Shown here in pieces: positions 8,649 through 33,093 of a stretch of 33,093 bases of DNA. Position numbers and translations under genes: made by a program. The notes under the pieces are model-generated. The model saw only the letters and a list, made by a program, of their open reading frames with translations, was not told where the DNA came from and ran no database searches. Source of the stretch: a virus; the IMG/VR virus record IMGVR_UViG_3300042559_000792, positions 1 to 33,093 of that record; one strand, 5' to 3'. Each line of letters opens with the position of its first letter. Within the stretch, counting starts at the first letter, position 1.

Positions 8649-8656
8649 ACTAAATA
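8649..8656 (+). promoter_or_regulatory. Late promoter box of the plus-strand glycan operon
   Basis: ACTAAATA followed by TC, seven bases before the ATG at 8664. The same TAAATA-N7-ATG spacing occurs at 18493 and 29112. It sets the start of the first glycan gene and leaves almost no leader. Confidence 0.55.
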
Positions 8657-8663
8657 TCTGACT

Positions 8664-12615: not shown

Positions 12616-13233
12616 ATGGATCATAATCGAGAATTTTGGGAATACCAACACGCACAAGATAACGTACGAACCTTGTCGGGTTGTGCGTTTGATGACACTG
12701 TAGACTTTTTAAATGTCCGAGACCTACTAGTTCCAGATATGCACGTACTAGAAATTGGGTGTGGATTGGGTTATGTAACCGAAGGATTTTCTAAGATAGC
12801 TAACATCAGTGTATTAGACATTAGCAAAACTGCATTGGAGCGGGTGCAATCGTTTTGTGAAGCAGTTTATCATATAGATAATGTTGAATCATTGCCCATT
12901 GATTATTTTGATTTGATTGTTTGTCATAATGTTGTACAACATGTGCCTACAGAATCATTGACGATTGAACTTAAACATGCAATTCGTAGTTTGGCAACTA
13001 CAGGTACTTTTGCTATGGAATATGTCTGGGCCAATGGAATTGATGATGATGGTGTTAAATTTGAACCAAGTTGGGCCACGGCAGGGCATCTTTGTCGCAG
13101 TGATAAATTTATGATGGATTTAGTTAACAAACTAGGAGGTACTTGTAAAATATCTCGCACTAACCCTGTGGCCGCCCATAGAAAAATACACGGGTTAACT
13201 GTGTTACACATACAGAAAGATCAAAATGTTTAA
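12616..13233 (+). CDS. SAM-dependent methyltransferase (UbiE/Methyltransf_11-like)
   Basis: A 205-residue methyltransferase with motif I HVLEIGCGLGYVT at about 43-55, the acidic strand-2 residue in ISVLDIS, and FDLIVCHNVVQHVP for motif IV. It starts immediately after the stop of the epimerase and overlaps the dehydratase by eight bases. This is the second methyltransferase in the operon and the two are not close copies, so two different positions or sugars may be methylated. The substrate is not identifiable. Confidence 0.8.
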   Translation: MDHNREFWEYQHAQDNVRTLSGCAFDDTVDFLNVRDLLVPDMHVLEIGCGLGYVTEGFSKIANISVLDISKTALERVQSFCEAVYHIDNVESLPIDYFDLIVCHNVVQHVPTESLTIELKHAIRSLATTGTFAMEYVWANGIDDDGVKFEPSWATAGHLCRSDKFMMDLVNKLGGTCKISRTNPVAAHRKIHGLTVLHIQKDQNV

Positions 13234-14206
13234 TAATAAAAGAATATTCATTTCAGGTGCCACCGGCTCTTGGGGGCAAACACTGGTTGCCATGTTACTC
13301 AAACACTATGATCCAAAAGAAATTATTTGTTTCAGTCGAGGCGAACTTCAACAGGTGTTAATGCAACGAAAGTTTCATGATCCAAGACTAAAGTTTATAA
13401 TTGGTGATGTGCGCGATTATGAAAGCGTTCGTTTTGCAACCAAGGGTGTTGATGTTATATTTCACTTGGCCGCACTTAAACATGTGCCCATCTGCGAAGA
13501 TCATCCACAGGAAGCCATCAAAACAAACATCACGGGAACTACCAATATTGTCAACGCCGCTGTAGAAAATCATGTCGGCAAAGTAATTGATGTCAGCACA
13601 GACAAAGCAGTAGAGCCGTTAAATCTGTATGGCATGACCAAAAGCGTGGGCGAAAAGTTAATCATACAAGGCAATGATCTAAGCACACACACAAAGTTTG
13701 TTTGTATTCGTGGTGGTAATGTCATGGGTTCCAACGGCAGCGTGATTCCGTACTTTATTGAGCAGATCAAAGCAGGTGGTCCTGTTACCATCACTGATTT
13801 GCAAATGACTCGGTTCTTCTTGACGCTAGAGGAAGCCATCATGTTGTTGTTCAAAGCCGCAGAAACCAGCATCGGCGGTGAAACATTTGTTATGAACATG
13901 CCGGCTTGTTACATTCGAGATGTGGCCCGTGTACTCATGGACAAGTATGGTACTGTGGACATAAAAGAAATTGGCAGCAAGCCAGGCGAGAAACTAGACG
14001 AAATGTTGATCAGCAAACACGAAGCTGTGCTGAGTCGTTGCTTTGATGAAAATTACTATGTAATACTTCCTACTAAATGTTCTGCAGAACTTGAGAACAA
14101 ATACAGAGAGTTACCAGCATTTCCCTACTCAGAGTTCAGTTCTCAAACAGTATTAATGAACGATGATCAAATCAAAGACATGTTGGTCAAGGGAGGATTC
14201 TTGTGA
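13226..14206 (+). CDS. UDP-GlcNAc 4,6-dehydratase (inverting), PseB/FnlA-like
   Basis: A 326-residue extended short-chain dehydrogenase. The NAD site is SGATGSWG near the N-terminus. LKFIIGDVRDYESV, HLAALKHVPICE, the STDKA strand, YGMTKSVGEK (the catalytic YxxxK) and GNVMGSNGSVIPYF are all hallmarks of the short soluble inverting dehydratases. They turn UDP-GlcNAc into a 4-keto-6-deoxy-L sugar. The intact Tyr is more like PseB, since CapE/FnlA carry Met there. No PseC aminotransferase follows; a reductase and a 2-epimerase flank it instead. Confidence 0.88.
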   Translation: MFNNKRIFISGATGSWGQTLVAMLLKHYDPKEIICFSRGELQQVLMQRKFHDPRLKFIIGDVRDYESVRFATKGVDVIFHLAALKHVPICEDHPQEAIKTNITGTTNIVNAAVENHVGKVIDVSTDKAVEPLNLYGMTKSVGEKLIIQGNDLSTHTKFVCIRGGNVMGSNGSVIPYFIEQIKAGGPVTITDLQMTRFFLTLEEAIMLLFKAAETSIGGETFVMNMPACYIRDVARVLMDKYGTVDIKEIGSKPGEKLDEMLISKHEAVLSRCFDENYYVILPTKCSAELENKYRELPAFPYSEFSSQTVLMNDDQIKDMLVKGGFL

Positions 14207-15033
14207 AAATCACAGTACTAGGTTCCAACGGCATGGCTGGACATGTTGTGGTCAGTTATCTTCGTCAGCAAGGGCACGAGGTTGATGCAGTGGACCGAGC
14301 CCGATTAGATGTTGAAAATACTCTTTCAGTTGCAGAATTTTTTGATCAACTCAATACTGATTTTGTTGTTAATTGCATTGGCCTACTGGTACAGCCATGT
14401 TTGCAACGGTCCGACCGCGCCAGCATGATCAATTCCTGGTTGCCACACTACATTGAATATCGATTGAAAGACACTCACACTCGCTTGATCCATCTAAGTA
14501 CTGATTGCGTGTTTGACGGTACTACAGGTTATTATAAAGAAAAAGATACGCACACTGAAATGAATGCGTACGGCCGTAGTAAAAGTCTAGGCGAAGTTGA
14601 CAACAGCAAAGACATTACATTTCGTATGAGCATTATCGGACCTGAACTCAAAACTGGCACTGGGCTACTTGATTGGGTTAGAAAAAATCCTGCCACTGCA
14701 ATACCTGGATGGGACAATGCCAGGTGGAATGGTATCACCACATTGCAGTTGGCCAAATGTATTGATCGATATGTACGCAACCCCAGTGTTGCTGGCATAT
14801 ATCATGTGGTCAACAACTCAGTAAACATTAACAAATATGAGTTATTGTGCTTGATCAACGAAGTTTACAATCTAGGGAAGACTGTGATTAGAACCAGTGG
14901 CCCCAAGGATCTAAACAAGATCCTAGTAGACACCAGACATGAATTTGATTTTGCCATTCCTGATTATCGCACACAGTTAAATGAATTACGAGACTTTGAC
15001 CCAGTTGCGCATGTGACTCCAACAACGTCCTGA
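14203..15033 (+). CDS. RmlD-like 4-keto-sugar reductase
   Basis: A 276-residue SDR-type reductase that would reduce the 4-keto group of the dehydratase product. The NAD(P) site is VLGSNGMAGHVV. LSTDCVFDG is the typical RmlD strand, and AYGRSKSLGE holds the YxxxK pair. It starts at GTG in a GTGA overlap, with a strong GGAGG ribosome site. RmlD-type (rather than CapF-type) reductase beside FnlC- and PseB/FnlA-like enzymes recalls bacterial UDP-L-RhaNAc/L-QuiNAc routes (WbvB/WbvR/WbvD). It overlaps the minus-strand gene tail to tail by 48 bases. Confidence 0.85.
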   Translation: MKITVLGSNGMAGHVVVSYLRQQGHEVDAVDRARLDVENTLSVAEFFDQLNTDFVVNCIGLLVQPCLQRSDRASMINSWLPHYIEYRLKDTHTRLIHLSTDCVFDGTTGYYKEKDTHTEMNAYGRSKSLGEVDNSKDITFRMSIIGPELKTGTGLLDWVRKNPATAIPGWDNARWNGITTLQLAKCIDRYVRNPSVAGIYHVVNNSVNINKYELLCLINEVYNLGKTVIRTSGPKDLNKILVDTRHEFDFAIPDYRTQLNELRDFDPVAHVTPTTS

Positions 15034-15942
15034 TCTAACATCTTCAAAACTCCAGTGACATTGTGCTAGTTTTCTGATCCATTGCTCACGGTCAGGCATG
15101 TGAGGATTTTCTATCTGACTCAGGTCAGTGTTGGCAATATCGCCGCCCTGGCTGTATGCAGGATCATCTGTGATAAATGCCGGGATTCCTTCAATTGGTG
15201 CAACTGCACTGGGAGTTGAATTATGACATACTACCGCCCAGCAATTGACCAAGTCTTCGGTTATGTGCCGGTTTTGTGGGCTCACAGTAACGCCAAACTT
15301 AACTAGCGTGGATTTATAATTGGGAAATGCCTTCCAGTCACCTGGATGCCATCTTATTAAGATTGGACGGTCACTGTTTTCTCTAATCTTGCCTAATGTT
15401 CTCTTAAGCCACTTCATTAAATCCGCGCCACGCATACTCCACCCCAGCGGTCGTTGCAAGCAGATCAATATGTGATTGCCACTGGCCCGCCAAGGTTTTA
15501 GATCCATATTATAGTCACGTCGCATGTTGTTCCAGTTTTCTGCGCCAGGCGTTTCATTACAGTATATGCCTGTGGCAGGAAACACACCATTGAAACTGTA
15601 GCGTAGATACTTGTGTGGATTGGCAGCATCTTTGTAAATGAATACGTTGCTGTCTATGCTTAACCAGTAACGATGAAGACTGTGTTGTGTATCCATTACC
15701 ATTTTGCGAACTTGATAATGCGGCAGTCTGACCTTGCTGGGATTTGCATCAAACGCATTGCCAATAATGGCACCAACATCACATGTTTCGTATGTTTGTG
15801 AGTTGGTGACTGATGCTGAATCGCCACACTTGGCTGCACCCTCTGCAAAATAAGTCAACGCATCAATCTTTTCGTTGCCGTTGATATGTCTGGGCAAACT
15901 TCTTAGATAACTTTTAACAATCAAGGGTTGAGCGTAGTTCAT
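14986..15942 (-). CDS. Capsule-synthesis-type glycosyltransferase-like protein (paralogue 2)
   Basis: A 318-residue protein with the same core as the gene at 7786-8619. LKPWRASGNHILICLQRP lies at about 147-164, DRPILIRWHPGDW at about 191-203, and CWAVVCHNSTPSAVAPIEGIPAF at about 234-255. The shared tail signature (NTDLSQIENPHMPDREQW) starts at about 271. KpsC/LipB-like enzymes use the HP and HNS motifs for the nucleotide-sugar phosphate. It is the last gene of the minus-strand operon, starting 29 bases inside its upstream neighbour and ending 48 bases inside the convergent reductase. Confidence 0.65.
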   Translation of the reverse strand: MNYAQPLIVKSYLRSLPRHINGNEKIDALTYFAEGAAKCGDSASVTNSQTYETCDVGAIIGNAFDANPSKVRLPHYQVRKMVMDTQHSLHRYWLSIDSNVFIYKDAANPHKYLRYSFNGVFPATGIYCNETPGAENWNNMRRDYNMDLKPWRASGNHILICLQRPLGWSMRGADLMKWLKRTLGKIRENSDRPILIRWHPGDWKAFPNYKSTLVKFGVTVSPQNRHITEDLVNCWAVVCHNSTPSAVAPIEGIPAFITDDPAYSQGGDIANTDLSQIENPHMPDREQWIRKLAQCHWSFEDVRSGRCWSHMRNWVKVS

Positions 15943-17017
15943 TTTCTAATACCATTTCCCAGGCCTTGCCTGTTAAAATCTCATCCAGACTGAATTGACT
16001 GTAAGCAATTGAGCATAACCATCTGTAAACAACTTCTTCATTGGGCATACAAGGATTTTCAATTTGTGAAAGATCATTACTGCATACCGGATCTGCCGCA
16101 GTGGGTGCCAGTCCAAAGGCTGGAATTCCGTACTGTATTGCTTCCACAGTTGCAATACTGTTGTAAGTGACCAGGGCATAGATGTCATCATCCAAGGCAT
16201 CGTATATGGTGGCATTTGTACGTTCCCCACGACTGGCCTTTTCACGCCAGACAATCTCTCTGTCACTGTGTTTTTTAATAGTGCGTTCAACTTTTTCAAT
16301 CCATTTCTCACGATTGTGTCCATAATATTGAAATGGTTTATTAGTGGGCAACACCACTAGAATTTTTGATCCAGTGCGCTTCCAGCCTTTGTATTCCAAG
16401 TTTGGATTGAATTTTACCAGTTGTTGCCATCGGTCATCTGGCACATCCATGATAGTTGAATGTTGCATGGAATTTTTTACAATGCGATGATACACTTTTC
16501 TGCCGGTTTGATTGTTGTCACATCGATAATTGCCAAGATATCCTGTTTCGATAAAGTAATAGTCTTGATCATGTTCTCTCACAATCTTGGCTATTTTACC
16601 AGAACTAATGCCGCGTATCAGCACAGGATCTTTGATAATCTCTTCCATTTCGGTGCGGAATCTATTTTTATCAATAAATTTACTGCTGGGATATGCAGCC
16701 ATGACCATTGCTGGATAGTCTGTAAATTTTAAACAACGATCAAATTGGGCATCTTTATTTACAACATAATCAATAAGCCTTTGATGCGTTGAGTCGCCGC
16801 CATTCCTCTTGATAAATCCTTTAATATCTTTAGTTATCAATTCTTCGGGAATAGGACTTAGTCCCCATTCGTGTTCGAGTTGTTTTAACATTTCAACTTC
16901 AGCACGAAGGTTCAATAGATCTGCAACACTGTGTTTGAGTGCGGATTCAATTGTTGCGTGTTGTATTTTATACTCGTCACTGGGCCAACGGTCCACCAGG
17001 GCCACTGGTAAAATCAT
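15914..17017 (-). CDS. Capsule-synthesis-type glycosyltransferase-like protein (paralogue 3)
   Basis: A 367-residue, divergent member of the same paralogous trio. GWKRTGSKILVVLPT lies at about 211-225, SDREIVWRE at about 251-259 (no HP pair here), and ALVTYNSIATVEAIQYGIPAFG at about 281-302. NDLSQIENPCMP lies at about 314-325. HNS is replaced by YNS and the PHP-type motif is lost, so its activity may differ or be absent. The N-terminal 150 residues have no counterpart in paralogue 1. It shares ATGA with the upstream gene. Confidence 0.55.
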   Translation of the reverse strand: MILPVALVDRWPSDEYKIQHATIESALKHSVADLLNLRAEVEMLKQLEHEWGLSPIPEELITKDIKGFIKRNGGDSTHQRLIDYVVNKDAQFDRCLKFTDYPAMVMAAYPSSKFIDKNRFRTEMEEIIKDPVLIRGISSGKIAKIVREHDQDYYFIETGYLGNYRCDNNQTGRKVYHRIVKNSMQHSTIMDVPDDRWQQLVKFNPNLEYKGWKRTGSKILVVLPTNKPFQYYGHNREKWIEKVERTIKKHSDREIVWREKASRGERTNATIYDALDDDIYALVTYNSIATVEAIQYGIPAFGLAPTAADPVCSNDLSQIENPCMPNEEVVYRWLCSIAYSQFSLDEILTGKAWEMVLENELRSTLDC

Positions 17018-17700
17018 AGCATGTTCCTTTGTAAGCAGTATTCAGTTAGAATACGTTCTCTATGCCATTCATCACCTTGTGGTGTGTCGGCAAACTCCTG
17101 GAAGCAAGGTGTGCCCAGAGTGTAGTGTAGCAGTTTGGCATCCTTATTAATGCCGTACTCATCAGGCAGCCAGTTCCACTCAGGGGGTAATTCTCCAATA
17201 CGTTCATCATCTATCCACGAGAAGCGGTGGAGCTCACTGCCTGTGGATTTTTGGATGAACTCGGGAGTAAGTTTCCGGTTAGGAAAACTATTACAATTCC
17301 ACAGAATAACACTTGACCAATTTTTTCGAGGATAGTCTTCATTTCGTGCTCCTAGATATTTTACAGGCATCTTTGTTTTGTAGTCATGTTTGACTACTTG
17401 TACATCCATGTAGGGATTTCGTAACTCCCAAAGTTCAGAAATGTCTCCTCGCACAATCATGTCGCCGTCAATGAAGATGGCCCAGCCTGTGTATTCTTGC
17501 AGGTGTGGCACAAGAAATCGTGTGTAGATAAAGTGATTGCTGCCGTCTGTGTGCGTTTCTTCGTAGTCTCGAAACAAGTTTAAGGCCACAGGAATAATAG
17601 CCACAGGCTTTGATGCATGCCGTATGATTGAGTTGGCACAGGTGTGAAAAGCAATGGCTTCTCTTGGATCGTATCCAACATAAACTGGTATGGCTTTCAT
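17014..17700 (-). CDS. GT8-like glycosyltransferase
   Basis: A 228-residue GT-A enzyme. It begins with IPVYVGYDPREAIAFHTCANS, a typical start of small phage and bacterial GT8-like proteins. The metal/nucleotide-sugar motif is FIDGDMIVRGD (DGD at 78-80), followed by KNWSSVILWNC (about 126-136) and a C-terminal LLHYTLGTPCF with the metal-binding histidine. No membrane or signal sequence is seen. It is coupled by ATGA on both sides in the minus-strand operon. Confidence 0.8.
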   Translation of the reverse strand: MKAIPVYVGYDPREAIAFHTCANSIIRHASKPVAIIPVALNLFRDYEETHTDGSNHFIYTRFLVPHLQEYTGWAIFIDGDMIVRGDISELWELRNPYMDVQVVKHDYKTKMPVKYLGARNEDYPRKNWSSVILWNCNSFPNRKLTPEFIQKSTGSELHRFSWIDDERIGELPPEWNWLPDEYGINKDAKLLHYTLGTPCFQEFADTPQGDEWHRERILTEYCLQRNML

Positions 17701-18452
17701 CGGCGTTCTATGTCCTCTTCTACACAGTCGTCGCCAAACTGAATTTCGATTAATTTCAGTGGTTGATCAGTTTCATTACACAACATGTGCCATTGATTTT
17801 TCTTGATCCAAATATAGTCATGCACTCCGTAATGTCCTACTAGGTCGTGGTCGCTAGAATTGTCCAGGGTATACACTGCGGCTTCGCCTTCGGCTACAAA
17901 CCAAAACTCCGCACGTCGATCATGTCGTTGCATGCTAAGACAAGTTTTGGCAGCCACTGTGAGTTCTTTGAGTTTGGTGTTAGATCCTACTTCATGTAGC
18001 ACACGATAATAGCCCCATGCACGGGTAGTCTTGGGCTTCTTCCACTCTTCTAATATCCACGAACTGGAGTTCATTTTATTTTCGCCACCTACTCCAAACA
18101 CAAACTCCACGTCATCAAAGATCATTTCTGGGATGTTGTCTTGTGTACGGTCACCACCATTTGCAAATACAATGTTGGCAGCAGGGTAGCGTTGTTTGAC
18201 CAGTTGAATTGCATCACAACTACTGTTGTCATCATCATTGTAAACTACAACTTCGTCTACTATGCTTAAGGCACTGATCAATGCAAATCTCTCACTCATG
18301 GGCATAAACGGTCGTCCCTTTTTACGAGTGAGCCACTCGTCTGAGTTAAGACCAACGACCAGTCGATCGCCTAGTTTTTTTGCTGATTGGAAGTAAGCAA
18401 GGTGCCCAGAATGGCAGGGATCAAACCCGCCGGTTACAAGTACAATTTTCAT
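17697..18452 (-). CDS. Nucleotidyltransferase fused to a cupin (sugar isomerase-like) domain
   Basis: A 251-residue two-domain protein. Residues 1 to about 125 form a cytidylyltransferase-like domain with GGFDPCHSGH (HxGH at 14-17) and LVVGLNSDEW, as in glycerol-3-phosphate or heptose-1-phosphate nucleotidyltransferases. Residues about 143-245 form a cupin like the C-terminal domain of type II mannose-6-phosphate isomerases: RAWGYYRVL, LSMQRHDRRAEFWFVAEGEA, then IKKNQWHML. It may make a nucleotide-activated sugar or polyol for the adjacent transferases. It is the first gene of the minus-strand operon, with its start five bases from a late box. Confidence 0.8.
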   Translation of the reverse strand: MKIVLVTGGFDPCHSGHLAYFQSAKKLGDRLVVGLNSDEWLTRKKGRPFMPMSERFALISALSIVDEVVVYNDDDNSSCDAIQLVKQRYPAANIVFANGGDRTQDNIPEMIFDDVEFVFGVGGENKMNSSSWILEEWKKPKTTRAWGYYRVLHEVGSNTKLKELTVAAKTCLSMQRHDRRAEFWFVAEGEAAVYTLDNSSDHDLVGHYGVHDYIWIKKNQWHMLCNETDQPLKLIEIQFGDDCVEEDIERR

Positions 18453-18457
18453 AAAGA

Positions 18458-18465
18458 TATTTATG
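18458..18465 (-). promoter_or_regulatory. Late promoter box of the minus-strand glycan operon
   Basis: CATAAATA followed by TC on the minus strand, five bases before the ATG at 18452. In T4 geometry the start of transcription is the A of that ATG. It is divergent from the box at 18478. Confidence 0.6.
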
Positions 18466-18477
18466 TGTGTATATAAC

Positions 18478-18485
18478 GGTAAATA
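18478..18485 (+). promoter_or_regulatory. Late promoter box
   Basis: GGTAAATA followed by TC, seven bases before the ATG at 18493. It favours that ATG over upstream in-frame ATGs at 18463 and 18490, which would not be on the transcript. Confidence 0.5.
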
Positions 18486-18492
18486 TCAAATG

Positions 18493-19212
18493 ATGCCTAC
18501 TACTGAACCCTTAGACTGTGCTTGCGTAATACACGGCGATGGATACACATGGGACTATGTTGAACGACTGTACAGTATGCTGTGTAGGAATCTAAGTCGT
18601 CCAGTAAGATTACACGTTTACACAGAAGCAGACAGAACAGTTCCAGACCATATGATCAAACATGCTTTGATTGATTGGGGGTTTGCAGGACCTAAAAAAT
18701 CCTGGTGGTATAAACTACAGTTGTTCAATACAGAACATCATTCGGGCCCGCTATTGTACTTTGATTTGGACATGGTAATTACAAAAAATATTGATTGGAT
18801 TTGGCAATTACCACAGCGACATTTCTGGGCAGTGAGAGATTTTAGGTATCTATGGAAAAATACTTGCACAGTGTCAAACACCAGTGTGATGTGGTGGAAT
18901 ACTGAACATTACCAGCATGTGTGGAAAGAAGTAATTGGCCAAGACATTGGCCAATTTACCAGCAAATATCGAGGCGATCAAGACTTGATTTCGGCAATAA
19001 TACCTGTGGGAAATCGTAGATTTTTTAACACTGATTGGGTTAAAAGTTGGCGATGGCAGTGCCTGGATGGCGGGTTTAATTTTTCAAAACGCAAGTACTT
19101 GGCTCCCAACACTGGAACTGTGGTAGATGATGCCACCAGTATTTTGGTGTTTCACGGCAGTCCAAAACCACATGAAATCTCAGACCCAGCGGTGCAAACT
19201 TATTGGCAATGA
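18493..19212 (+). CDS. GT-A type glycosyltransferase
   Basis: A 239-residue protein opening with CACVIHGDGYTWDYVERLYSM. It carries PLLYFDLDMVITKNIDW (the DxD-type motif), NTSVMWWNTEHY, YRGDQDLIS, and a C-terminal VFHGSPKP that supplies a metal-binding His. All of these fit a cytoplasmic retaining GT-A enzyme of the GT8-like kind. It diverges from the minus-strand glycan operon and has its own late box, so it is probably made with the same timing. A start at 18490 or 18463 would add 1 or 10 residues. Confidence 0.75.
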   Translation: MPTTEPLDCACVIHGDGYTWDYVERLYSMLCRNLSRPVRLHVYTEADRTVPDHMIKHALIDWGFAGPKKSWWYKLQLFNTEHHSGPLLYFDLDMVITKNIDWIWQLPQRHFWAVRDFRYLWKNTCTVSNTSVMWWNTEHYQHVWKEVIGQDIGQFTSKYRGDQDLISAIIPVGNRRFFNTDWVKSWRWQCLDGGFNFSKRKYLAPNTGTVVDDATSILVFHGSPKPHEISDPAVQTYWQ

Positions 19213-24099: not shown

Positions 24100-24600
24100 A
24101 TGAGAATACTAACACTAGATAACACAGCATTTGACCTTGACCATCTTCCAGAAGAAGTTGAAGACATGAGATTTGCTATATTTGACAACAGTGATCCCAA
24201 GGATCCAGACTATCATTACATTCCGCTTATCTTTTTAGAAAGTTTTAATGCTCCTGCGCTGGTGTTACAAATTGGTGAACACAAAATACGCATGCCCATG
24301 GACTGGCAGATACTAATTGGCGAACCTGAAGTAGGCGACCTTGAAGTGCTTCCATTGACCAGTATCAACGACCGTGGCTTTAAGGTATTTCAGTTTAATC
24401 CATTAAGCAGTTTTCGACCGAGTTTTCCAACTGTTGAAATTATAGACGTGTATCATGAAGTGGCCTGGTATGCTCCTAAGTTAAAAAATGGACAGATGTT
24501 GTGTATTCCGCTGAGTGATGATCCCAAGCCGGACTGTGTGTATTTTGTCAAAGATATCAGTCGTAACTGTGAGATTGTAGACTATCAAAAGGCCTGGTGA
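24100..24600 (+). CDS. Hypothetical protein heading the early operon
   Basis: A 166-residue protein beginning MRILTLDNTAFDLDHLPEEV. It is acidic, beta-rich and soluble, with two Trp-containing segments (MPMDWQILIGEPEVGDLEVL; EVAWYAPKLKNG). I can assign no family or catalytic motif. The ATG lies at the predicted transcription start. It overlaps the gp62-like gene by ATGA and so is probably part of the replication module; a structural adaptor role is conceivable but unproven. Confidence 0.7.
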   Translation: MRILTLDNTAFDLDHLPEEVEDMRFAIFDNSDPKDPDYHYIPLIFLESFNAPALVLQIGEHKIRMPMDWQILIGEPEVGDLEVLPLTSINDRGFKVFQFNPLSSFRPSFPTVEIIDVYHEVAWYAPKLKNGQMLCIPLSDDPKPDCVYFVKDISRNCEIVDYQKAW

Positions 24601-25049
24601 TGAGTGATAAACTAAACATTGCCAACGAGATGCGACAGTTTGATCGCAAGGATCGTAATTTTTATAAAGATTTAACAGACGAAGAACGTAAAAAATTCTC
24701 AAACTATCTTATGATACGGTGGGGCAGTTCAGTTGAAGGATCAAGAGAACTGCAAGAGTTTTATCTTATTGCTACTAATGAACGCTTCAACAAACATTTC
24801 TTTGCACTGAGCCGGCATCCGGAACTGCAATGGCTGTGTGCCACTACTGTTAGTCCTGACATGGGCACACCCAGACACACCTGGATTGCTCCTAAGAAAA
24901 AAGAACCCGGTGCTAGTAGTATACGCAAACAGTTGGCAGAACTGTATCCACATTTAAAAGATGATGACATTGCGGTGCTGGCGTCGATTACTACTAAAAA
25001 AGAAATCGACGAGCACTTGAAGTTATCGGGGCAAGAAACTAAAAAATGA
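24597..25049 (+). CDS. 62: Probable clamp-loader small subunit (gp62-like)
   Basis: A 150-residue protein that fits the phage clamp-loader subunit A (T4 gp62) in outline. FSNYLMIRWGS opens the core, then YLIATNERFNKHFF. The basic stretch TVSPDMGTPRHTWIAPKKK corresponds to the RFGKW.K region of family members. The end is helical (LAELYPHLKDDDIAVLASI, then TTKKEIDEHLKLSG), like the helices before the usual C-terminal Gly. The match is by eye and identity is low. The partner ATPase gp44 and clamp gp45 are not in the window. ATGA overlaps link it to both neighbours. Confidence 0.5.
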   Translation: MMSDKLNIANEMRQFDRKDRNFYKDLTDEERKKFSNYLMIRWGSSVEGSRELQEFYLIATNERFNKHFFALSRHPELQWLCATTVSPDMGTPRHTWIAPKKKEPGASSIRKQLAELYPHLKDDDIAVLASITTKKEIDEHLKLSGQETKK

Positions 25050-26072: not shown

Positions 26073-26980
26073 TACACATTGACTTTCAAGGCGGAGCACA
26101 CGGGAACTTCTTGGAATTTGTGTGCAACGTCATGGCCGGCGTTGAAACTGTTGGCGATCCGTTTAATGCAGCCGGAGCATCGCACAACAAACAATATCTG
26201 TCGCCGCGAGTATTTTATGCAGGGCATTATTCTTTTTATTCTATTCCATTGCAATATAATCGCGTGATTACAGTGAAAATTGAAGTGGATGATTTATTGC
26301 CATTGAGCCAGATTAGTTTGTTACGAGCCGGAGACTACGGTTATGACAACGATGAGTTAGAAATCAATACCTACACCAAACTCAACAATAAAAATTATCA
26401 ATGGGTACTAGATAATATTTTAAATTCATTCTTTACTGATCAAATAAAAAATAGCTATGATAGAGTAAAAGATCCCGGGTGGCCCGATGTCAACTGCTTA
26501 GAGGATTTTCAACACCTGCCCGAACACATACGTCGAGAATGCATGGAAGTTCATAACTTAGAATTATTAGAACTTGGCCCTGTTACTCCCGATTGTCCAA
26601 GGCATATTCTTAGAGAGTTTTTTCAGATAGGATTTGAAAATCCTGCCAACGCAGGGTTTATAACACAACAACAACTGATTCGTTACGACGAATGGGTTGA
26701 TGTGTATGAGTTTCCGTTTAGTGCCTTTTACAACAAACAGCGATTCTTGGATCAGCTCACTCAGATTGCAATGTGGGCAGGAATACAGTATACTACACAA
26801 CAGCAAGCGGAACAGTTGCATACACTGTTTTTAGAAAAACAACCGTACAAGGATTCAAAAAATAAATGTGATGATCTTGTGTTGAGAATACAAAACAATG
26901 CACTGACGCACATTCCGGTAGTAGATCTACTAGAAGAAGCATACATCAATGCCAAATTGGAACAAAATTATTTTTTATGA
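26069..26980 (+). CDS. Conserved-looking unknown protein, partner of the amidinotransferase
   Basis: A 303-residue protein starting in the ATGA overlap at 26069; a frame reaching back to 25934 gives a Cys/Arg-rich extension that is only the upstream gene in another frame. The N-terminal MIHIDFQGGAHGNFLEFVCN has a P-loop-like turn as in sulfotransferase-type folds. A late segment (FPFSAFYNKQRFLDQLTQIA, then MWAGI) resembles the C-terminal part of such enzymes. No PAPS site can be proved. ATGA coupling to the amidinotransferase, and the shared lower GC, suggest the two act together. Confidence 0.65.
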   Translation: MIHIDFQGGAHGNFLEFVCNVMAGVETVGDPFNAAGASHNKQYLSPRVFYAGHYSFYSIPLQYNRVITVKIEVDDLLPLSQISLLRAGDYGYDNDELEINTYTKLNNKNYQWVLDNILNSFFTDQIKNSYDRVKDPGWPDVNCLEDFQHLPEHIRRECMEVHNLELLELGPVTPDCPRHILREFFQIGFENPANAGFITQQQLIRYDEWVDVYEFPFSAFYNKQRFLDQLTQIAMWAGIQYTTQQQAEQLHTLFLEKQPYKDSKNKCDDLVLRIQNNALTHIPVVDLLEEAYINAKLEQNYFL

Positions 26981-28116
26981 ACAATAAATTTTCAGTATAT
27001 CAACACTGGGATCCACTAAAAGTATGTGTGGTTGGGCACAGTTATCCCCCTGAGTTTTATTCATGGATCACAGTACCGCATGTAAGATCGCTTTTTGAAA
27101 AAATTGCAATCGAAACTGAGGAAGACTATCAAAAAATAATACAAAAACTCCAGGAGTTTGGTGTTGAGGTTTTGCGCCCTACGTTACCAACCAACACTTT
27201 CATTGGTGGCAAGCACTATCCGCCTCCTATGACTCCCAGAGATCACATGATAATGATTGGTGAAACATTTTACACAGGCTATAGATTAAATTTTAAAGAA
27301 TTCTACAAAGCTGTTAGGGATGAATCATGGCCGCAATGCGATTCGTTTGATGAATTTTTAACATTGCCGACTTGGATACAAAACGAATGCAATGAGCAGC
27401 ATCAGTTGACTGAGTTACGTAGTTTTTATTCAAGCTATAATAATATCTTTGATAGGATTACACGCCAAGGTAATGTTATTAAAGAAACAAATATTTCTCA
27501 AGCGCCTGGCGCATTTATTACACGGGTTGGAAAAGATTTATATTTTGGTACAAGTTCTTACAACCAAGATCAATCCGCATATTTTAAAAAAATCCAAACT
27601 GAATTTGCCCACACACGCAATCACATTGTGAATACCGGAGGGCACAGTGACGGAACCTACTGCCCAGTTGCTCCAGGATTAATTATAAGTCTTTATGATG
27701 TACCCACTTATGCAAACACTTTTCCAGACTGGGAAGTGGTTTATCTTCCAGGACAAAGTTGGAACAAAGTTAGTCCGTTTTTAAAATTAAAACAACAAAA
27801 CAAAGGCAAATGGTGGATTCCTGGATTCGAGCAAGACCAAGCAGTTATCAGTGTAGTAGAACAATGGCTAGGTCATTGGACTGGTTATGTAGAAGAAACT
27901 GTGTTTGATGTTAACATGTTGATGATCGACCCTAAAAATGTCATGGTGTTCAACTACAACAAACAGGTGTTTGACGCACTAGAACGCTATGGCATTACTC
28001 CGCACATTGTACCATTCCGTCATAGATATTTCTGGGATGGTGGCATACATTGCATTACAACAGATCTGCACCGACAAGGTACAATGCAAGATTATTTTTT
28101 AGACAAAAACACATGA
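26977..28116 (+). CDS. Amidinotransferase (glycine amidinotransferase-like)
   Basis: A 379-residue member of the guanidino-modifying (amidinotransferase/deiminase) superfamily, which moves an amidino group from arginine to an amine. TPRDHMIMIGETFYTG lies at about 86-101. GGHSDGTYCPVAPGLIIS holds the active-site His (H223) and aligns with HIDATF...GPGIVLS of animal glycine amidinotransferase. FDVNMLMIDPKNVMV precedes DGGIHCITTDLHRQGTMQDY with the nucleophile C359. By my manual alignment the catalytic Asp of the family (ADF) is replaced (GAF, about 178-180), which needs checking. The acceptor is unknown. Such a gene in a phage replication operon is unusual. Confidence 0.82.
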   Translation: MNNKFSVYQHWDPLKVCVVGHSYPPEFYSWITVPHVRSLFEKIAIETEEDYQKIIQKLQEFGVEVLRPTLPTNTFIGGKHYPPPMTPRDHMIMIGETFYTGYRLNFKEFYKAVRDESWPQCDSFDEFLTLPTWIQNECNEQHQLTELRSFYSSYNNIFDRITRQGNVIKETNISQAPGAFITRVGKDLYFGTSSYNQDQSAYFKKIQTEFAHTRNHIVNTGGHSDGTYCPVAPGLIISLYDVPTYANTFPDWEVVYLPGQSWNKVSPFLKLKQQNKGKWWIPGFEQDQAVISVVEQWLGHWTGYVEETVFDVNMLMIDPKNVMVFNYNKQVFDALERYGITPHIVPFRHRYFWDGGIHCITTDLHRQGTMQDYFLDKNT

Positions 28117-28691
28117 GTGCAGACATTGATTTAGATTTTGCCAACAGAGAAGCAGTACTGAAATTGATTCAGCACACTCCTGCACGTCAAACAGTGCAAG
28201 GACAAGTGCGTCGGCACAACTCCGGGGTGTATGTCACAGACATCCCCTTGGATCCTGTCAATCACTGTGCAGCCATAGACTACGAAGCAGCAGAGCAACT
28301 GGGCTATTTTAAAATTGATCTGTTAAACATGAGTGTTTATCAGCTGATCACCAGTCCCGAACACTATGCTACAGCAGTGGCTACAGAACCAGAATGGACA
28401 AGATTATGGCAAGAACCTGCGTGGGCCCAACAGCTAGCCCATGTGGGCAACTATACAGACCTGCTGAACGCAATGCGCCCAGATAGTATCCCAAGAATGG
28501 CAGCGTTCATTAGTATTATTCGTCCGGGCAAAGCACACTTGCAACGACAACCCTGGGACGTAGTGTTTGAAAGTGTGTGGGATGGTGACGAAAGTCGAGG
28601 CTACACATTTAAACATGCTCACGCAATTAGTTACGCAGCCTTGGTGGCATTACACATGAACTTGCTCAGTCCATCCGTCGCACAAGTGTAA
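28113..28691 (+). CDS. Miniature DnaE-like (C-family DNA polymerase) core protein
   Basis: A 192-residue protein starting in the ATGA at 28113. It carries, in order, the hallmarks of bacterial polymerase III alpha. ADIDLDF (D6, D8) matches the palm PDFDVDF. VRRHNSGVYVTDIPL matches GKHAGGVVIAP. LGYFKIDLLNMSVYQLI (D69) matches LVKFDFLGLRTLTII. MRPDSIPRMAAFISIIRPG (121-139) matches QPDCFEDMIALVALFRPG. FKHAHAISYAALVAL (166-180) matches FNKSHSAAYALVSY. All three catalytic aspartates are present, yet PHP, thumb and most of the fingers are absent (about 1,160 residues in E. coli DnaE). Whether it polymerises, regulates or mimics DnaE is unknown. Confidence 0.75.
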   Translation: MSADIDLDFANREAVLKLIQHTPARQTVQGQVRRHNSGVYVTDIPLDPVNHCAAIDYEAAEQLGYFKIDLLNMSVYQLITSPEHYATAVATEPEWTRLWQEPAWAQQLAHVGNYTDLLNAMRPDSIPRMAAFISIIRPGKAHLQRQPWDVVFESVWDGDESRGYTFKHAHAISYAALVALHMNLLSPSVAQV

Positions 28692-29043
28692 TACTTTTAC
28701 GCTTGCCTTTTTTCAATGCAATATCAGCAAGGCTGCAAATAGGCCCGTGTAAGATTTCCAAGTCTTTGTTGGCAAATGTGCGGAGACAGGGTCGGAATAC
28801 GTCCCAGTCCTTTTTAAGGAAGATGTTGATGGGAATACTTCTATTACTTTCCCACCACCAAGCATTGGCCAACTCTAGGAACCGTTGCTTTAGTACAGGG
28901 TCGTGTATACTGCCAAAGTCGTATATGGTAGTAACAGTGGCGTCTTGATTCTGCACAATGCCCACATACTCCGTAGAAGCATATACACACAGTGTAATAA
29001 AGGGATATTGTTCGCTGAGTTTAGTAAAGATATCATTGGCCAT
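28666..29043 (-). CDS. Hypothetical late protein
   Basis: A 125-residue minus-strand protein with a perfect late box six bases ahead of its ATG. It begins MANDIFTKLSEQYPFITLCVY, has a Trp-rich centre (ANAWWWESNRSIPINIFLKK) and a basic tail (KKGKRKSITLVRRMD). I do not recognise a function. It has no signal, membrane or catalytic motif. Its 3' end overlaps the mini-DnaE gene tail to tail by 26 bases, so late transcription here would run antisense to the early operon. Confidence 0.75.
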   Translation of the reverse strand: MANDIFTKLSEQYPFITLCVYASTEYVGIVQNQDATVTTIYDFGSIHDPVLKQRFLELANAWWWESNRSIPINIFLKKDWDVFRPCLRTFANKDLEILHGPICSLADIALKKGKRKSITLVRRMD

Positions 29044-29049
29044 CGGTGG

Positions 29050-29057
29050 TATTTATA
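29050..29057 (-). promoter_or_regulatory. Consensus T4 late promoter, minus strand
   Basis: A perfect TATAAATA on the minus strand, six bases before the ATG at 29043. It is the best late box in the window and anchors the reading of the others. Confidence 0.8.
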
Positions 29058-29096
29058 CCGTGCATTTTTGGCTAAATTTAAAGGTTATCTTTTGTC

Positions 29097-29104
29097 GCTA
29101 AATA
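29097..29104 (+). promoter_or_regulatory. Late promoter box of the tail-like gene
   Basis: GCTAAATA followed by C, seven bases before the ATG at 29112. It is divergent from the minus-strand box at 29050. Confidence 0.55.
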
Positions 29105-29111
29105 CAGTCAT

Positions 29112-30221
29112 ATGTATTCAACCACTGCTTACCTTTACCAACAAGTAACTCGAGTTATTGTAGTCGACACCAGTGGTGCTTATTTCAATCTGAGGTACAA
29201 TCCTGTGTATGCTAAAAAACTAACAATTAACAAAGGTGTTGACAACGTGATCTTGTTTGAGTTCATCAATCAAGACGAAAAACCCGTGAATATCACAGGC
29301 AGCACACTGACATTTAGAATGGTTAGCCAAAATGGCGATGCATTGTTGGTACAAAAAGAAATGGTTGTTATCAATGCACAGTATGGTCGTGCCAAAGTAA
29401 CACTGACCACAGCAGAACTTGACACAGTGTTAGCACAACCCGCTGCCTACAGCATCATGCGAGCCAGTGGCAATCTAATAGAAGCAGTGTACACAGATGC
29501 ACAATCGGGTGCTCGTGCTCCGCTTGATGTGGTAGACAGTGTGTATCCGCAATATGTTCCCAGTGCCAACTTGACAATTCCCACCACAGAAATCACAGCT
29601 CAGGTCAGTTATGGTGGGTCCAGCAGTAGTGTATACCCAGATTGGGCATTAAATGCCGGCAGCTCAATCAACAACTACAGTCCTTACCAACCAACTGAAT
29701 TTTACAGCAGTTTCATAGAACCAGTTGGCGCAGTAACCACAATACAAATGGACCTGCTTGGCTATACAGGTACCATCAAGGCCCAGGCCGCAGAAAACTA
29801 TCAGAGTATCTGGTACAATGTTACAGAATCTACTCAGTACCTAAACAGAACCGAAACCATTTTCATGAACGTGATTGGATGGCATCCGTTGTTGCGTTTG
29901 TGTTTCAACAACAGCATATACACCACTGGTACAAATGGTCAAGCAATGGGCAATCCCGGTCAAGCCACTGCCACAGTGGCCAACGGCATTGTCACAGGAG
30001 TCACTGTTTCTAACCCAGGTTTTGGTTATTTGGCTCCGCCCCTGATTGAGTTTGTGGGTGAAGGCGCAGGTGCTGTGGCCACTGCCAGTATATCGGGCAG
30101 TTCAATCAGTGGCATTACACTGATATCCGGTGGTTCTGGATATCGCCCAGTTCCTCCTACCATGCAGTCAGTGCAGGTACTTGTTTCCACAGGACGTGTG
30201 GTAAACTTGAAGTACCGTTAA
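29112..30221 (+). CDS. Probable tail or baseplate structural protein
   Basis: A 369-residue late protein. An N-terminal beta domain (about 20-130, with VNITGSTLTFRMVSQNGDAL and KVTLTTAELDTVLAQP) resembles the BppU-like N-terminal domains of baseplate and fibre proteins. The C-terminus has two copies of a short beta repeat: QATATVANGIVTGVTVSNPG then GFGYLAPP, and AVATASISGSSISGITLISG then GSGYRPVPP (about 282-350). Such repeats are common in marine phage fibre proteins. The late box and lack of membrane segments fit a virion role; the exact structural position is unknown. Confidence 0.7.
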   Translation: MYSTTAYLYQQVTRVIVVDTSGAYFNLRYNPVYAKKLTINKGVDNVILFEFINQDEKPVNITGSTLTFRMVSQNGDALLVQKEMVVINAQYGRAKVTLTTAELDTVLAQPAAYSIMRASGNLIEAVYTDAQSGARAPLDVVDSVYPQYVPSANLTIPTTEITAQVSYGGSSSSVYPDWALNAGSSINNYSPYQPTEFYSSFIEPVGAVTTIQMDLLGYTGTIKAQAAENYQSIWYNVTESTQYLNRTETIFMNVIGWHPLLRLCFNNSIYTTGTNGQAMGNPGQATATVANGIVTGVTVSNPGFGYLAPPLIEFVGEGAGAVATASISGSSISGITLISGGSGYRPVPPTMQSVQVLVSTGRVVNLKYR

Positions 30222-30240
30222 TTTGTTTTAACTGTTATTT

Positions 30241-30248
30241 GATAAATA
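30241..30248 (+). promoter_or_regulatory. Late promoter box ahead of the homing endonuclease
   Basis: GATAAATA, five bases before the ATG at 30254. Homing endonuclease genes in T4 often carry their own late promoters, so this fits a mobile gene bringing its own promoter. Confidence 0.55.
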
Positions 30249-30253
30249 GGTGT

Positions 30254-30901
30254 ATGAAATACATCTATATTATTACATCACCATCCGGCAAACAATACGT
30301 TGGCAAAAGCACTATTGGCCCAACTCAAAAGTCTATACTTTATCAATCAGCCGCAAAATATTTTCCAAGCATAAAGCGTCCTATCCTCGAAGCCATTCGA
30401 AAATATGGGTGGGTAAACATGAAATTTAAGATTATAGAACAAAATATTAACTGGTCTTCGGATGAGTTAAACGAAAGAGAAAAATACTGGATACAAAAAT
30501 ATGAAACGTTACAAACTGGTTATAATGTAACCGCCGGCGGCGACGGCCATGATTCGGACTCTGCAAAACTATTTTGGCAAAATGTATCAACTGAGTGGAA
30601 AGAAAAACGGGCATTAAATTGCAGTACTGGTCAAAAACGCAGATATAATAATTCTAAAGACTCTGCCGAAACAAAAAAACGTAAAAGCGATTCGCATAAA
30701 GGAACTTATAAAATAACGTCACCAGATGGCAAAGAATGGACAACTAATTTAGGACTCAAAGAATTTGCCGAACTACATAAAGATGAACTAAAAATAACGT
30801 ATTGGGGCTTGTTCTCGGCGTATAGAAAGTGTTATAATAATGCACAACCGTTAGTTAAAAGAAAAAATGAAAATTTGTGGAAAGTAATACGCATTGATTG
30901 A
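30254..30901 (+). CDS. GIY-YIG homing endonuclease (Seg-like)
   Basis: A 215-residue free-standing homing endonuclease. The catalytic module opens YIYIITSPSGKQYVGKS (the GIY and YIG elements at about 3-5 and 15-17), with an Arg in ILEAIRKYGW, a Glu in LNEREKYWIQKYE, and TGYNVTAGGDG. The C-terminal KITSPDGKEWTTNLGLKEFA resembles the NUMOD-type DNA-binding repeat of such enzymes. The start at 30254 follows the late box; a frame from 30239 would begin upstream of it. It is clearly more AT-rich than the genes on both sides, and it overlaps the primase by eight bases, as expected for a mobile gene inserted by the primase locus. Confidence 0.88.
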   Translation: MKYIYIITSPSGKQYVGKSTIGPTQKSILYQSAAKYFPSIKRPILEAIRKYGWVNMKFKIIEQNINWSSDELNEREKYWIQKYETLQTGYNVTAGGDGHDSDSAKLFWQNVSTEWKEKRALNCSTGQKRRYNNSKDSAETKKRKSDSHKGTYKITSPDGKEWTTNLGLKEFAELHKDELKITYWGLFSAYRKCYNNAQPLVKRKNENLWKVIRID

Positions 30902-31868
30902 CATCCTCTCATATTGGAAAACAGGAAGAAAAACTAAACTAAGCCCATCGGGTTGGATTTCTGGCAATGCGCCGTGTTGTATTCATAATGGCAATACACC
31001 AGACCGCAGAGGGCGTGGTGGTATTAAATTGTCTGATCAAGGGTGGAGTTATTCGTGTTTTAACTGTGGCTATACTGCAAGTTTTATTTTAGGCCGCAAT
31101 ATCGGATTCAAAGCACGACGCCTGCTGGAATGGATTGGTGTTCCTGAGAACGATATCAATCAAATCAATCTTGAAAGCATGCGCCATCGTAGCATGGAAG
31201 GCATGATTGAAGACCGTCAGCGTGTGTGGAACAACACAGCACCCATTGAGTTTACGGAAACAGATTTGCCTGAATTTACAGATTTTGTAACACCAGCAAC
31301 ACCCGATCATTGGGCATATTTGCGTAGCAGGCATGTGCCGGAAGACTATCCCATCATGGTATCTGCCACAACACGAGCAGGTGTAATTGTTCCGTTTACG
31401 TACAACAATCAAGTGGTAGGCAGCACCGTACGTTTCTTGGATGATCGTAATCCACGTTACATCAATGACATGCAGAAAGGCTACGTGTTTGGTATAGACC
31501 TACAGCAAGCAGGTTGGCAAAATGTGATTGTGACAGAAGGTATCTTTGATGCGCTCTGTATCAGTGGTGTGGCTGTGATGCACAACGAAGTAAGTGATGA
31601 CCAAGCAAGACTAATACGTAGCTTAGGACGCAATGTTGTTGTGGTGCCAGACCAAGATGCCGCAGGCGTGGCATTAATCGATCGTGCTGTGGAACTGGGA
31701 TGGGCAGTAAGCATTCCGGACTGGCCAGCGGGTGTCAAAGATATCAACGATGCTGTGAAACTCTGGGGCAAGTTAGCAACACTGCTAACTATAATGCAAT
31801 CGAGTGAGAGCAGTCGAATTAAAATAGAACTAAGGAAGAAACAACTTGTTAAAAGATTACGGACTTGA
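30894..31868 (+). CDS. 61: DNA primase gp61
   Basis: A 324-residue T4 gp61-type primase that makes RNA primers with the gp41 helicase. The N-terminal zinc ribbon has C28/C29, H31 and C55-x2-C58 (SCFNC). The Toprim catalytic elements are VIVTEGIFDAL (E215) and VVVVPDQDAAG (D253, D255). The only start that keeps the N-terminus is TTG at 30894, eight bases inside the endonuclease gene; TGGAAAG upstream can serve as ribosome site. The original ATG may have been lost when the endonuclease inserted. Confidence 0.92.
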   Translation: MIDILSYWKTGRKTKLSPSGWISGNAPCCIHNGNTPDRRGRGGIKLSDQGWSYSCFNCGYTASFILGRNIGFKARRLLEWIGVPENDINQINLESMRHRSMEGMIEDRQRVWNNTAPIEFTETDLPEFTDFVTPATPDHWAYLRSRHVPEDYPIMVSATTRAGVIVPFTYNNQVVGSTVRFLDDRNPRYINDMQKGYVFGIDLQQAGWQNVIVTEGIFDALCISGVAVMHNEVSDDQARLIRSLGRNVVVVPDQDAAGVALIDRAVELGWAVSIPDWPAGVKDINDAVKLWGKLATLLTIMQSSESSRIKIELRKKQLVKRLRT

Positions 31869-33093
31869 AGTCCAACGATTATTCTTAGAAATGATGTTAG
31901 AAGACGCCGGCAGTTATGTGCGTGTTCAAAACATCTACAACCCACAAAACTTTGACCGGAGTCTGCGTCCTGCGGCTGAGTTTATTAAAGAGCACAGTGA
32001 CAAACACAAGACCATGCCTGACAAGGTGCAGATTAGTGCGACCACCGGCATCAAACTGCAACCAGTGCCGGACTTGAACGAAGGACACTTTGACTGGTTC
32101 ATGACCGAGTTTGAGGGATTTACCAAGCGTCAAGAACTTGAACGTGCTATTCTTAAAAGTGCAGACCTGTTAGAAAAAGGCGAGTTTGAACCAGTTGAAA
32201 AACTTATTAAAGATGCTGTACAAATATCACTCACCAAAGACATGGGCACAGATTACTTTGCTGATCCTGCGGCTCGCATTAACCGATACTTCAACTCGGG
32301 TGGGCAGGTTTCTACAGGCTGGCCACAATTGGACCGGTTATTGTATGGTGGATTCAGTCGTGGTGAACTAAACATTTTTGCAGGCGGATCTGGTTCCGGC
32401 AAGAGCTTGGTTATGATGAACATTGCACTTAACTGGTTACAACAAGGACTGAGTGGTGTGTACATTACACTAGAACTTAGTGAGGAACTTACTAGTTTGC
32501 GTACAGATGCAATGCTGACCAACATGTCAACAAAAGACATACGTAAGGACATTGATACAACAGAACTCAAAGTTAAACTGGTTGCTAAAAAATCTGGACA
32601 GTATCGTGTTAAAGCATTGCCAGCGCAAAGCAACATCAATGACATCCGCAGTTATATCAAAGAAGTACAAATACAAACAGGGATTAAAGTAGACTTCCTG
32701 ATGATTGACTACCTGGACTTGTTAATGCCAGTGAGTGCTAAGGTCAGCCCCAACGACTTGTTTGTCAAGGACAAGTATGTGAGTGAAGAACTGCGTAATT
32801 TGGCCAAAGAACTTGGAGTGCTGATGGTTACAGCAAGCCAGTTGAATCGTAGTGCTGTGGAAGAAATTGAATTTGACCACAGCCATATTTCAGGTGGTAT
32901 CAGTAAAATTAACACAGCAGACAATGTGTTTGGTATCTTTACTTCACGTGCTATGAAAGAACGTGGCAAGTATCAGATACAGTGTATGAAATCTCGAAGC
33001 TCGACCGGCGTTGGTCAAAAAATTGATTTGGAGTATAACATTGAAACTATGCGCATTACTGATGAAGGCGGGGACGAAGGAACAGGGTACAAC
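31846..33093 (+). CDS. 41: Replicative helicase gp41 (DnaB-like), 3' end beyond the window
   Basis: The frame is open to the right edge (416 codons). It starts at TTG 31846 after AAGGAAG, overlapping the primase end by 23 bases. A DnaB/gp41-type N-terminal domain (LKDYGLEVQRLFLEMMLED) is followed by the RecA-like core with Walker A GGSGSGKS at about 180-187, YITLELSEE, and Walker B FLMIDYLDLLMP at about 284-295. TASQLNRSAVE and KSRSSTGVGQKI come next, all typical of the 5'-3' hexameric helicase. Two neighbouring core genes with TTG starts is notable. Length versus the family (about 475) shows only the C-terminus is missing. Confidence 0.93.
   Translation, partial: MLKDYGLEVQRLFLEMMLEDAGSYVRVQNIYNPQNFDRSLRPAAEFIKEHSDKHKTMPDKVQISATTGIKLQPVPDLNEGHFDWFMTEFEGFTKRQELERAILKSADLLEKGEFEPVEKLIKDAVQISLTKDMGTDYFADPAARINRYFNSGGQVSTGWPQLDRLLYGGFSRGELNIFAGGSGSGKSLVMMNIALNWLQQGLSGVYITLELSEELTSLRTDAMLTNMSTKDIRKDIDTTELKVKLVAKKSGQYRVKALPAQSNINDIRSYIKEVQIQTGIKVDFLMIDYLDLLMPVSAKVSPNDLFVKDKYVSEELRNLAKELGVLMVTASQLNRSAVEEIEFDHSHISGGISKINTADNVFGIFTSRAMKERGKYQIQCMKSRSSTGVGQKIDLEYNIETMRITDEGGDEGTGYN

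Follow-up and report, generated by a model that had tools for sequence, protein, structure and literature searches.

The closest described system is a phage-specific minimal DNA polymerase III alpha (Pol III alpha), which Iyer et al. (2021; PMC7824862) reported to be split into two proteins in group 2.2 jumbo phages. Distant genes in these phages, which also have a family B polymerase, encode the two parts: the N-terminal protein binds NTP, and the C-terminal one binds Mg2+ and the template; the split enzyme was suggested to help with one strand or with repair and proposed to resemble an early form of the C-family enzyme (PMC7824862). Here, we analyzed the gene at 28113-28691 of IMG/VR virus record IMGVR_UViG_3300042559_000792, the whole 33,093-nucleotide stretch of which is referred to as the window. 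Judged by homology, its product is the metal-binding, C-terminal half (hereafter C-half) of a stripped-down C-family polymerase, and the gene is conserved. From the description in the paper, we infer that PHROG 11778 and PHROG 11127 are the two proteins meant there. As far as the passages of PMC7824862 used here go, the relatives of the window phage agree with that system in having separate half proteins in phages that also possess a family B polymerase, and there is no difference in kind, the window being an uncultured member. The split enzyme had thus already been described; what the present analysis adds to those passages is the precise position of the break, the segments that are missing, active-site invariance and the neighborhoods of both genes.

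Single homologues have been reported as well, namely CBB_328, a truncated 172-residue Pol III alpha from Pectobacterium phage CBB (PMC5259590), and gp316 of Atu_ph07, described as the single Pol III alpha homologue (PMC6102473); the portions of these two papers used here do not name a second half. We found that gp316, located at 240847-241380 of Atu_ph07, is the N-terminal half (N-half). The same most likely applies to CBB_328, because the N-half match in phage CBB (H102) carries the annotation 'DNA polymerase III alpha'. The C-half match in the CBB record KU574722 (H14) is annotated as 'putative membrane protein'. In a marine survey, PF07733, the N-half domain, was the sole unique gene found in at least half of the members of one jumbo-phage cluster (PMC9123017).

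Bacterial chromosomes are replicated by C-family polymerases, which apart from the system above are large enzymes, mostly made as a single chain. E. coli DnaE (2HNH, 4JOM) shares with the phage protein the order of the palm and fingers motifs and the catalytic aspartates, but it is a single chain of 1,160 residues with PHP, thumb, HhH, clamp-binding and C-terminal domains, none of which the phage protein has. A reduced thumb has precedents within the C family in PolC and Thermotogae DnaE3, which, unlike the phage halves, are single chains that keep most of the enzyme (PMC3919608).

We consider it likely that the gene product is one of the two subunits of a C-family accessory polymerase that has no thumb and assists gp43. 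Comparisons of sequence and structure show that this protein contains the second palm portion, including the three aspartates that bind metal, together with shortened fingers (RPG and KxH), and that the first palm portion with the GxGRGS loop is encoded by a separate gene in related genomes. A version of the enzyme that is cut through its own active site and lacks thumb and accessory domains would show the minimal needs of the catalytic core, and it raises the question of why jumbo phages retain a bacterial-type polymerase beside a T4-type one.

The C-half and its active-site residues

The gene and the motifs assigned within it are as follows.

28113-28691, + strand: C-half of a split minimal Pol III alpha, predicted to bind Mg2+ and template, 192 residues (PHROG 11778, hhalign to DnaE, structural match to 2hnh)
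28122-28136, + strand: D4-I-D6-L-D8 motif, invariant in 104/104 sequences; D4 corresponds to D401, D6 to D403 (catalytic) and D8 to D405 of E. coli
28311-28319, + strand: K67-I-D69, with D69 corresponding to catalytic D555; K67 and D69 invariant in 104/104; within the hhalign match
28521-28529, + strand: R137-P138-G139, fingers RPG block, with R137 and P138 present in 104/104; aligned to E. coli RPG 639-641
28611-28634, + strand: KHAHAISY block, counterpart of KSHSAAY; K167 in 102/104, H170 in 104/104 and Y174 in 101/104; within E. coli 741-767

A reading of the DNA made without database searches (the sequence-only reading) had described a 192-residue open reading frame (ORF) at 28113-28691 with the DnaE blocks in order, and had seen in it a drastically reduced C-family catalytic core encoded by a T4-like phage. 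The coordinates were right, and almost the entire ORF is spanned by a match to PHROG 11778, 'DNA polymerase' (E=1.1e-50). A weak match was obtained to phrog_405, a polymerase family of 1190 positions (E=7.8e-06), and none in single-sequence searches of the ORF against Pfam, NCBIfam and the PDB. The profile search for DnaE that the sequence-only reading had proposed found it: a 51-member family profile aligned with full-length DnaE in hhalign at E=4.8e-08, covering HxxGV...KxD...RPG, and another profile-profile comparison of the family with full-length DnaE gave E=1.4e-06. Conversely, a profile built from seven full-length C-family polymerases was compared with all open stretches of at least 25 residues in the six frames of the window. 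The 192-residue ORF ranked top with four collinear segments (E=0.001) and was the sole match below E=1, the next-best stretch reaching E=1.1. The profile and structural matches to DnaE thus support the reduced catalytic core.

The 51-member alignment was obtained by considering 64 of the 96 fetched C-half loci, removing three for a stop within the match and retaining 51 at less than 95% identity, with L001 swapped for the identical window sequence. The window protein represents an uncultured lineage and is at most 43% identical to the listed phage records. It is matched with 100% identity by the products of three IMG/VR contigs from other assemblies (L001, L002 and L003), so this phage or a very close relative has been sampled repeatedly.

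The PDB profile alignment gives F402 D403 V404 D405 for E. coli DnaE, whose catalytic residues are D401, D403 and D555 (PMC3919608). D405 is a further aspartate, kept in the three DnaE groups and replaced by Asn in PolC (PMC3919608). The phage proteins keep it. Lining up the phage motif A-D4-I-D6-L-D8 on F402-D405 and applying the literature numbering yields D4, D6 and D69 as the catalytic set. Of the aspartates previously proposed as catalytic (D6, D8 and D69), the first and last are confirmed, while D8 corresponds to D405 and D4 belongs in its place, a shift by one aspartate. Compared with DnaE-type enzymes, the window protein holds the equivalents of D401, D403 and D555 as well as D405; the palm is incomplete in the chain, and thumb, PHP and HhH are not in it. 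Compared with the split Pol III alpha, it is a stand-alone C-half with both the aspartates and the fingers motifs.

Twelve positions are invariant in all 104 sequences (84 of them distinct; L127, a partial match, was excluded): D4, D6, D8, H35, G38, K67, D69, P123, R137, P138, K140 and H170. The catalytic residues stay invariant across sequences down to 25% identity. Among 15 close relatives, the ratio of nonsynonymous to synonymous substitution rates (omega) had a median of 0.11 (range 0.06-0.18) in the 87 of 105 pairs with a synonymous divergence (dS) of 0.1-1.5, and the C-half gene is under purifying selection. An omega of about 0.11 together with invariant metal ligands argues for a working, catalytic protein.

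The N-half gene, the break point and the missing segments

The 192-residue protein lacks GxGRGS, the palm part that binds nucleotides. A PF07733 search of five related contigs revealed an N-half in three of them (G001, G004 and G005; over the cut-off in two), in open frames of 177-181 residues, the N-half being about 170 residues long in relatives. These frames match PHROG 11127, 'DNA polymerase', with E-values down to 8e-41, align with full-length DnaE in hhalign (E=1.5e-17) and match E. coli DnaE in the PDB by profile (4jom 286-393, E=3.6e-09). One of the three contigs, G001, has a C-half that is 86% identical to that of the window and contains the N-half as well. The two half genes lie about 104 kb (G007), about 105 kb (G006) or about 236 kb (G001) apart; in XacN1 and CM1 the distance is about 15 kb. 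The earlier suggestion of a minimal polymerase accordingly fits the pair of halves and not the 192-residue protein alone, whose GxGRGS complement is a distant gene in related genomes.

The N-half frame stops 1-3 residues past E-F-[L/I/F] in 89 of 91 matches, some of which are of the same sequence; the two exceptions are L087, which runs into a contig end, and L184, an unsplit outgroup polymerase. The N-half ends just beyond the residue equal to E. coli L392, and the C-half restarts at the catalytic DxD. A motif search found F-x-R-F followed by nine residues and then the D of DxD in five of seven full-length enzymes. Based on these alignments, we place the break between the residues equivalent to E. 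coli 393 and 401, inside the predicted active site and just before DxD.

The halves of cyanobacterial split DnaE carry intein pieces and are spliced together. The phage enzyme likewise has two genes (for split-intein DnaE, see PMC3919608) but, unlike that system, its N-half stops so shortly past the motif that there is no space for an intein, and intein splicing of the halves is ruled out by this stop in the 89 of 91 matches, all from relatives. Locus L184 looked like a natural fusion of the halves but is the unsplit phage DnaE that served as the outgroup. Its positions 1-3417 contain an unsplit DnaE core (at least 639 residues, cut at the locus end), upstream of which we noted, by eye, apparently separate PHP-type and DnaQ-type ORFs. 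With these ORFs read by eye, the arrangement looks like a second mode of dividing Pol III alpha.

Structural models of both halves resemble Pol III alpha. The N-half model, with a mean predicted local distance difference test (pLDDT) of 88.2, aligned with 2hnh 278-393 (Z 10.4, root mean square deviation (rmsd) 2.4, 96 residues aligned) and, as its best row, with 5lew (Z 12.8, rmsd 2.0, 93 aligned). The C-half model (mean pLDDT 80.0) aligned with 2hnh 402-781 (Z 7.9, rmsd 3.4, 115 aligned), and the two ranges in 2hnh abut without overlap. With the C-half, 15 entries reached a Z of at least 5; all belong to Pol III alpha or PolC, the titles of 9qrn, 9qrl and 9qpc saying only 'DNA polymerase', and the next row has Z 2.4. 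The VIA-align lists used leave room for unlisted folds. In Foldseek, Pol III alpha entries occupied the 12 top rows for the N-half and the 7 top rows for the C-half. Our assignment of the fold is based on these rows, the second-look structural alignments and the sequence profiles.

To locate the missing segments, we compared the spacing of invariant columns. In the first sequence of the full-length alignment (L202), these columns include D379, D381, D383, H489, G492, K530, D532, R612 and H726, and their phage counterparts are D4, D6, D8, H35, G38, K67, D69, R137 and H170. The D383-H489 interval comprises 106 residues in the full-length DnaE of L202 and 27 in the phage protein (D8-H35), and the R612-H726 interval shrinks from 114 to 33 residues. 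The remaining intervals shrink less (41 to 32 and 80 to 68). From the domain limits, we take the shrinkage from 106 to 27 residues to mark the place of the thumb. The Thermus thumb consists of residues 513-552 (PMC3919608), which in the numbering of 2hpi fall within this first shrunken interval. The second one, from 114 to 33 residues, corresponds to part of the fingers. The chain stops 22 residues past H170, and with so few residues left the HhH, clamp-binding and C-terminal domains must be absent from the C-half. The tau-binding part of DnaE lies further on, beyond the clamp-binding region. HhH and clamp-binding regions themselves follow the polymerase core in the order of DnaE (PMC3919608). 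As judged from the sequence, thumb, PHP, HhH and the later domains have all been lost from the C-half.

Co-occurrence of the halves and their possible function

Using tblastn, we found the C-half in 63 phage records, each match covering at least 80% of the query, with RaK2, PA5oct, Atu_ph07, SCTP-2 and XacN1 among the kinds of phages represented. Of the 60 records listed, 57 are 284-490 kb in size and three are shorter (86-110 kb). The C-half also occurs in at least 595 IMG/VR stretches, and this common family is present in phages of laboratory hosts such as P. aeruginosa PAO1, so it is directly testable. When 60 of the 63 C-half records were compared with 60 of the 77 N-half records, 59 were common to both sets; among the matches listed, a 109-kb record contained the C-half only and one record the N-half only. 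We further searched 19 related records, selected on the basis of a previously known half, which tests for the partner and not for prevalence. The C-half was found in 18, the N-half in 18 and a family B polymerase in 17 of them, the latter not being detected in two records of 145 and 149 kb. All three were present together in each of the 14 records above 280 kb. Neither PHP nor HHH_6 was found in any of the 19 records. Eight of nine rows for the fingers family PF17657 with E of at most 1 fell inside the C-half (two over the cut-off), and the ninth in a stretch with two stops. A fixed epsilon-type exonuclease as an additional partner was rejected, since Pfam RNase_T exceeded the cut-off in only 9 of the 19 records and gave no match in the closer relatives G001, G004, G005, G006, G007 and G012; this result leaves room for a divergent exonuclease.

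Our working model is that this phage also carries an N-half gene and that the two halves would bind in trans, whereby the GRGS loop and the DxD strand would form one active site like that of intact DnaE. The complex would then assist the gp43-like family B replicase by synthesizing short DNA segments, with fork tasks such as primer extension, gap filling or handover to gp43, or alternatively act in repair. The genes around the two halves suggest work at the fork, with primase and helicase near the C-half and the gp44 clamp loader near the N-half. In the counts of neighborhoods, which take in seven annotated phages (the eighth, CM1, is unannotated), six have primase and/or helicase downstream of the C-half at a distance of up to about 3 kb, the exception, within the stretch covered, being XacN1. 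Within the same distance downstream of the N-half, six of the seven have a clamp loader (five) or an AAA ATPase (one); here the exception, again within the stretch covered, is Vibrio phage 2.275.O. A bolder version, which we regard as possible but tentative, is that the pair constitutes the smallest known template-directed C-family polymerase, with about 365 residues in two chains, no thumb and an active site formed in trans, and acts between primase and gp43 much like eukaryotic Pol alpha. If true, a bacterial-type and an archaeo-eukaryotic-type polymerase would work within one phage replisome. In the open-licence literature, we came across no bench experiments on the split enzyme.

Several results weigh against a two-subunit accessory polymerase. 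The N-half was not found in the 33-kb window (best E 0.26), which is a fragment. Among the related records, G003 (145 kb) has a C-half without a detectable N-half, and G011 (235,561 bases, reached via L175) has an N-half and a family B polymerase without a detectable C-half, so that G011 is either incomplete or from a lineage whose C-half has diverged. Matches of the C-half profiles to the PDB were weak: the best E-value was 0.023 for the 51-member profile, although all seven matches were Pol III alpha chains in collinear segments, and 0.068 for a diverse 12-sequence profile (A1), with Pol III alpha in seven of eight rows and the non-polymerase 5kak as the odd one. The Foldseek check called for by the sequence-only reading likewise came out only in part, as the Pol III alpha entries filled the top rows but no E-value below 0.001 was reached for either half. 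A Z of about 8, as for the C-half model, is middling according to the tool's note; residues 1-10, which hold DxD, were modelled at a pLDDT of 56 when the C-half was modelled alone without its partner; and the C-half alignment with 5fkv begins at 392, which creates a two-residue overlap with the N-half range. The thumb, which grips DNA in other C-family enzymes, is lost, and processive synthesis is therefore doubtful. On the supporting side, the distances of N-half and C-half correlate across 17 genomes (r=0.906, with 0 of 2000 label shuffles as high; N-half rows W06 and W07 and C-half row W04 are shorter than the gene), which shows co-inheritance but not binding, and would be expected from vertical descent alone in a comparison that had no control gene.

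The loss of the thumb and the shortened fingers also make ordinary templated synthesis uncertain, and would fit an assembly of the halves into a non-polymerase nucleotidyltransferase or into a gp43 replisome subunit with a structural or regulatory role, as would the position of the N-half genes shortly upstream of the clamp loader. We regard such an assembly as unlikely, because invariance extends beyond the metal ligands to R137 and H170 of the fingers. That the 192-residue protein acts alone, as a minimal polymerase or nucleotidyltransferase, could be argued from its three metal-binding aspartates, its RPG and KxH blocks and the invariance of D4, D6, D69, R137 and H170 in 104/104 sequences. 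This was dropped as the main interpretation when the GRGS half turned up in a distant gene; the missing GxGRGS part of the palm is conserved as a separate gene in 18 of the 19 related records, and the N-terminal segment of the C-half is poorly modelled alone, which together make a stand-alone enzyme quite improbable.

The sequence-only reading had also considered a decoy or a regulator. A catalytically dead protein that interferes with the host replicase by binding to the clamp or tau of the host would be in line with the small size and with the family B polymerase that the related phages own (17 of 19 records). We nevertheless disfavor it as very improbable. The metal ligands are strictly invariant in 104/104 sequences, the match to DnaE ends at E. 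coli 781, ahead of the HhH and clamp-binding regions (HHH_6 and PHP in 0/19), and the GRGS half, for which a decoy would have no need, has been retained. Decay of a former full-length DnaE, for which only the length far below that of cellular DnaE (1,160 residues, 5fku) would speak, is contradicted by the selection result (omega about 0.11, catalytic residues invariant down to 25% identity) and by the occurrence in 63 phage records and the many IMG/VR stretches, and is hardly credible.

Genes surrounding the C-half

The C-half gene, which we interpret as coding for an accessory polymerase subunit, has the following neighbors in the window.

26977-28116, + strand: upstream gene, weakly arginine deiminase/amidinotransferase-like (PF02274, E=0.0028, below the cut-off; phrog_25854)
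28113-28116, + strand: ATGA overlap of the C-half start with the stop of the upstream gene (from the ORF ends and the sequence)
28666-29043, - strand: convergent small gene, phrog_11637 (function unknown), E=2e-31; overlaps the 3' end of the C-half by 26 nucleotides
30894-31868, + strand: DnaG-type primase, T4 gp61-like (phrog_47, E=2.7e-28; Toprim)
31846-33093, + strand: DnaB-type helicase, T4 gp41-like, truncated by the window end (phrog_19, E=1.5e-70)

The ATGA overlap makes translational coupling to the upstream gene likely and suggests read-through from upstream. An early promoter and gp62-like, zinc-finger and amidinotransferase neighbors had been put forward from the sequence. The scan, which covered sigma-70-like sites only, found three of them in 27700-29150, compared with a mean of 3.3 in shuffled sequence; the proposed promoter is thus at chance level among sites of this type. 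The supposed gp62-like gene (24597-25049) matches only a PHROG of unknown function, and no Pfam match was obtained for the supposed zinc-finger gene. For the amidinotransferase, only the Pfam arginine deiminase match below threshold (E=0.0028) can be cited. Terminator-like sites numbered four in the same interval, compared with a mean of 1.0 in shuffles, and a terminator-like stem with a T run lies at the end of the C-half (28683-28705).

Judged by position, a convergent small gene is found at the same place in RaK2, Paride, Phosso, Atu_ph07, SCTP-2 and the Vibrio phage, and the one at 28666-29043 may be a functional partner of the polymerase half. The replication region of the window around the C-half further comprises a gp32-like single-stranded DNA-binding protein, UvsX, UvsY and UvsW in addition to primase and helicase. 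In the middle of this region, between UvsY and AAA/UvsW, ORFs of glycosyltransferase, methyltransferase and nucleotide-sugar type were noted by eye at 7042-19212. A GIY-YIG homing endonuclease-like gene (30239-30898; phrog_314, E=3.4e-17) lies directly upstream of the primase.

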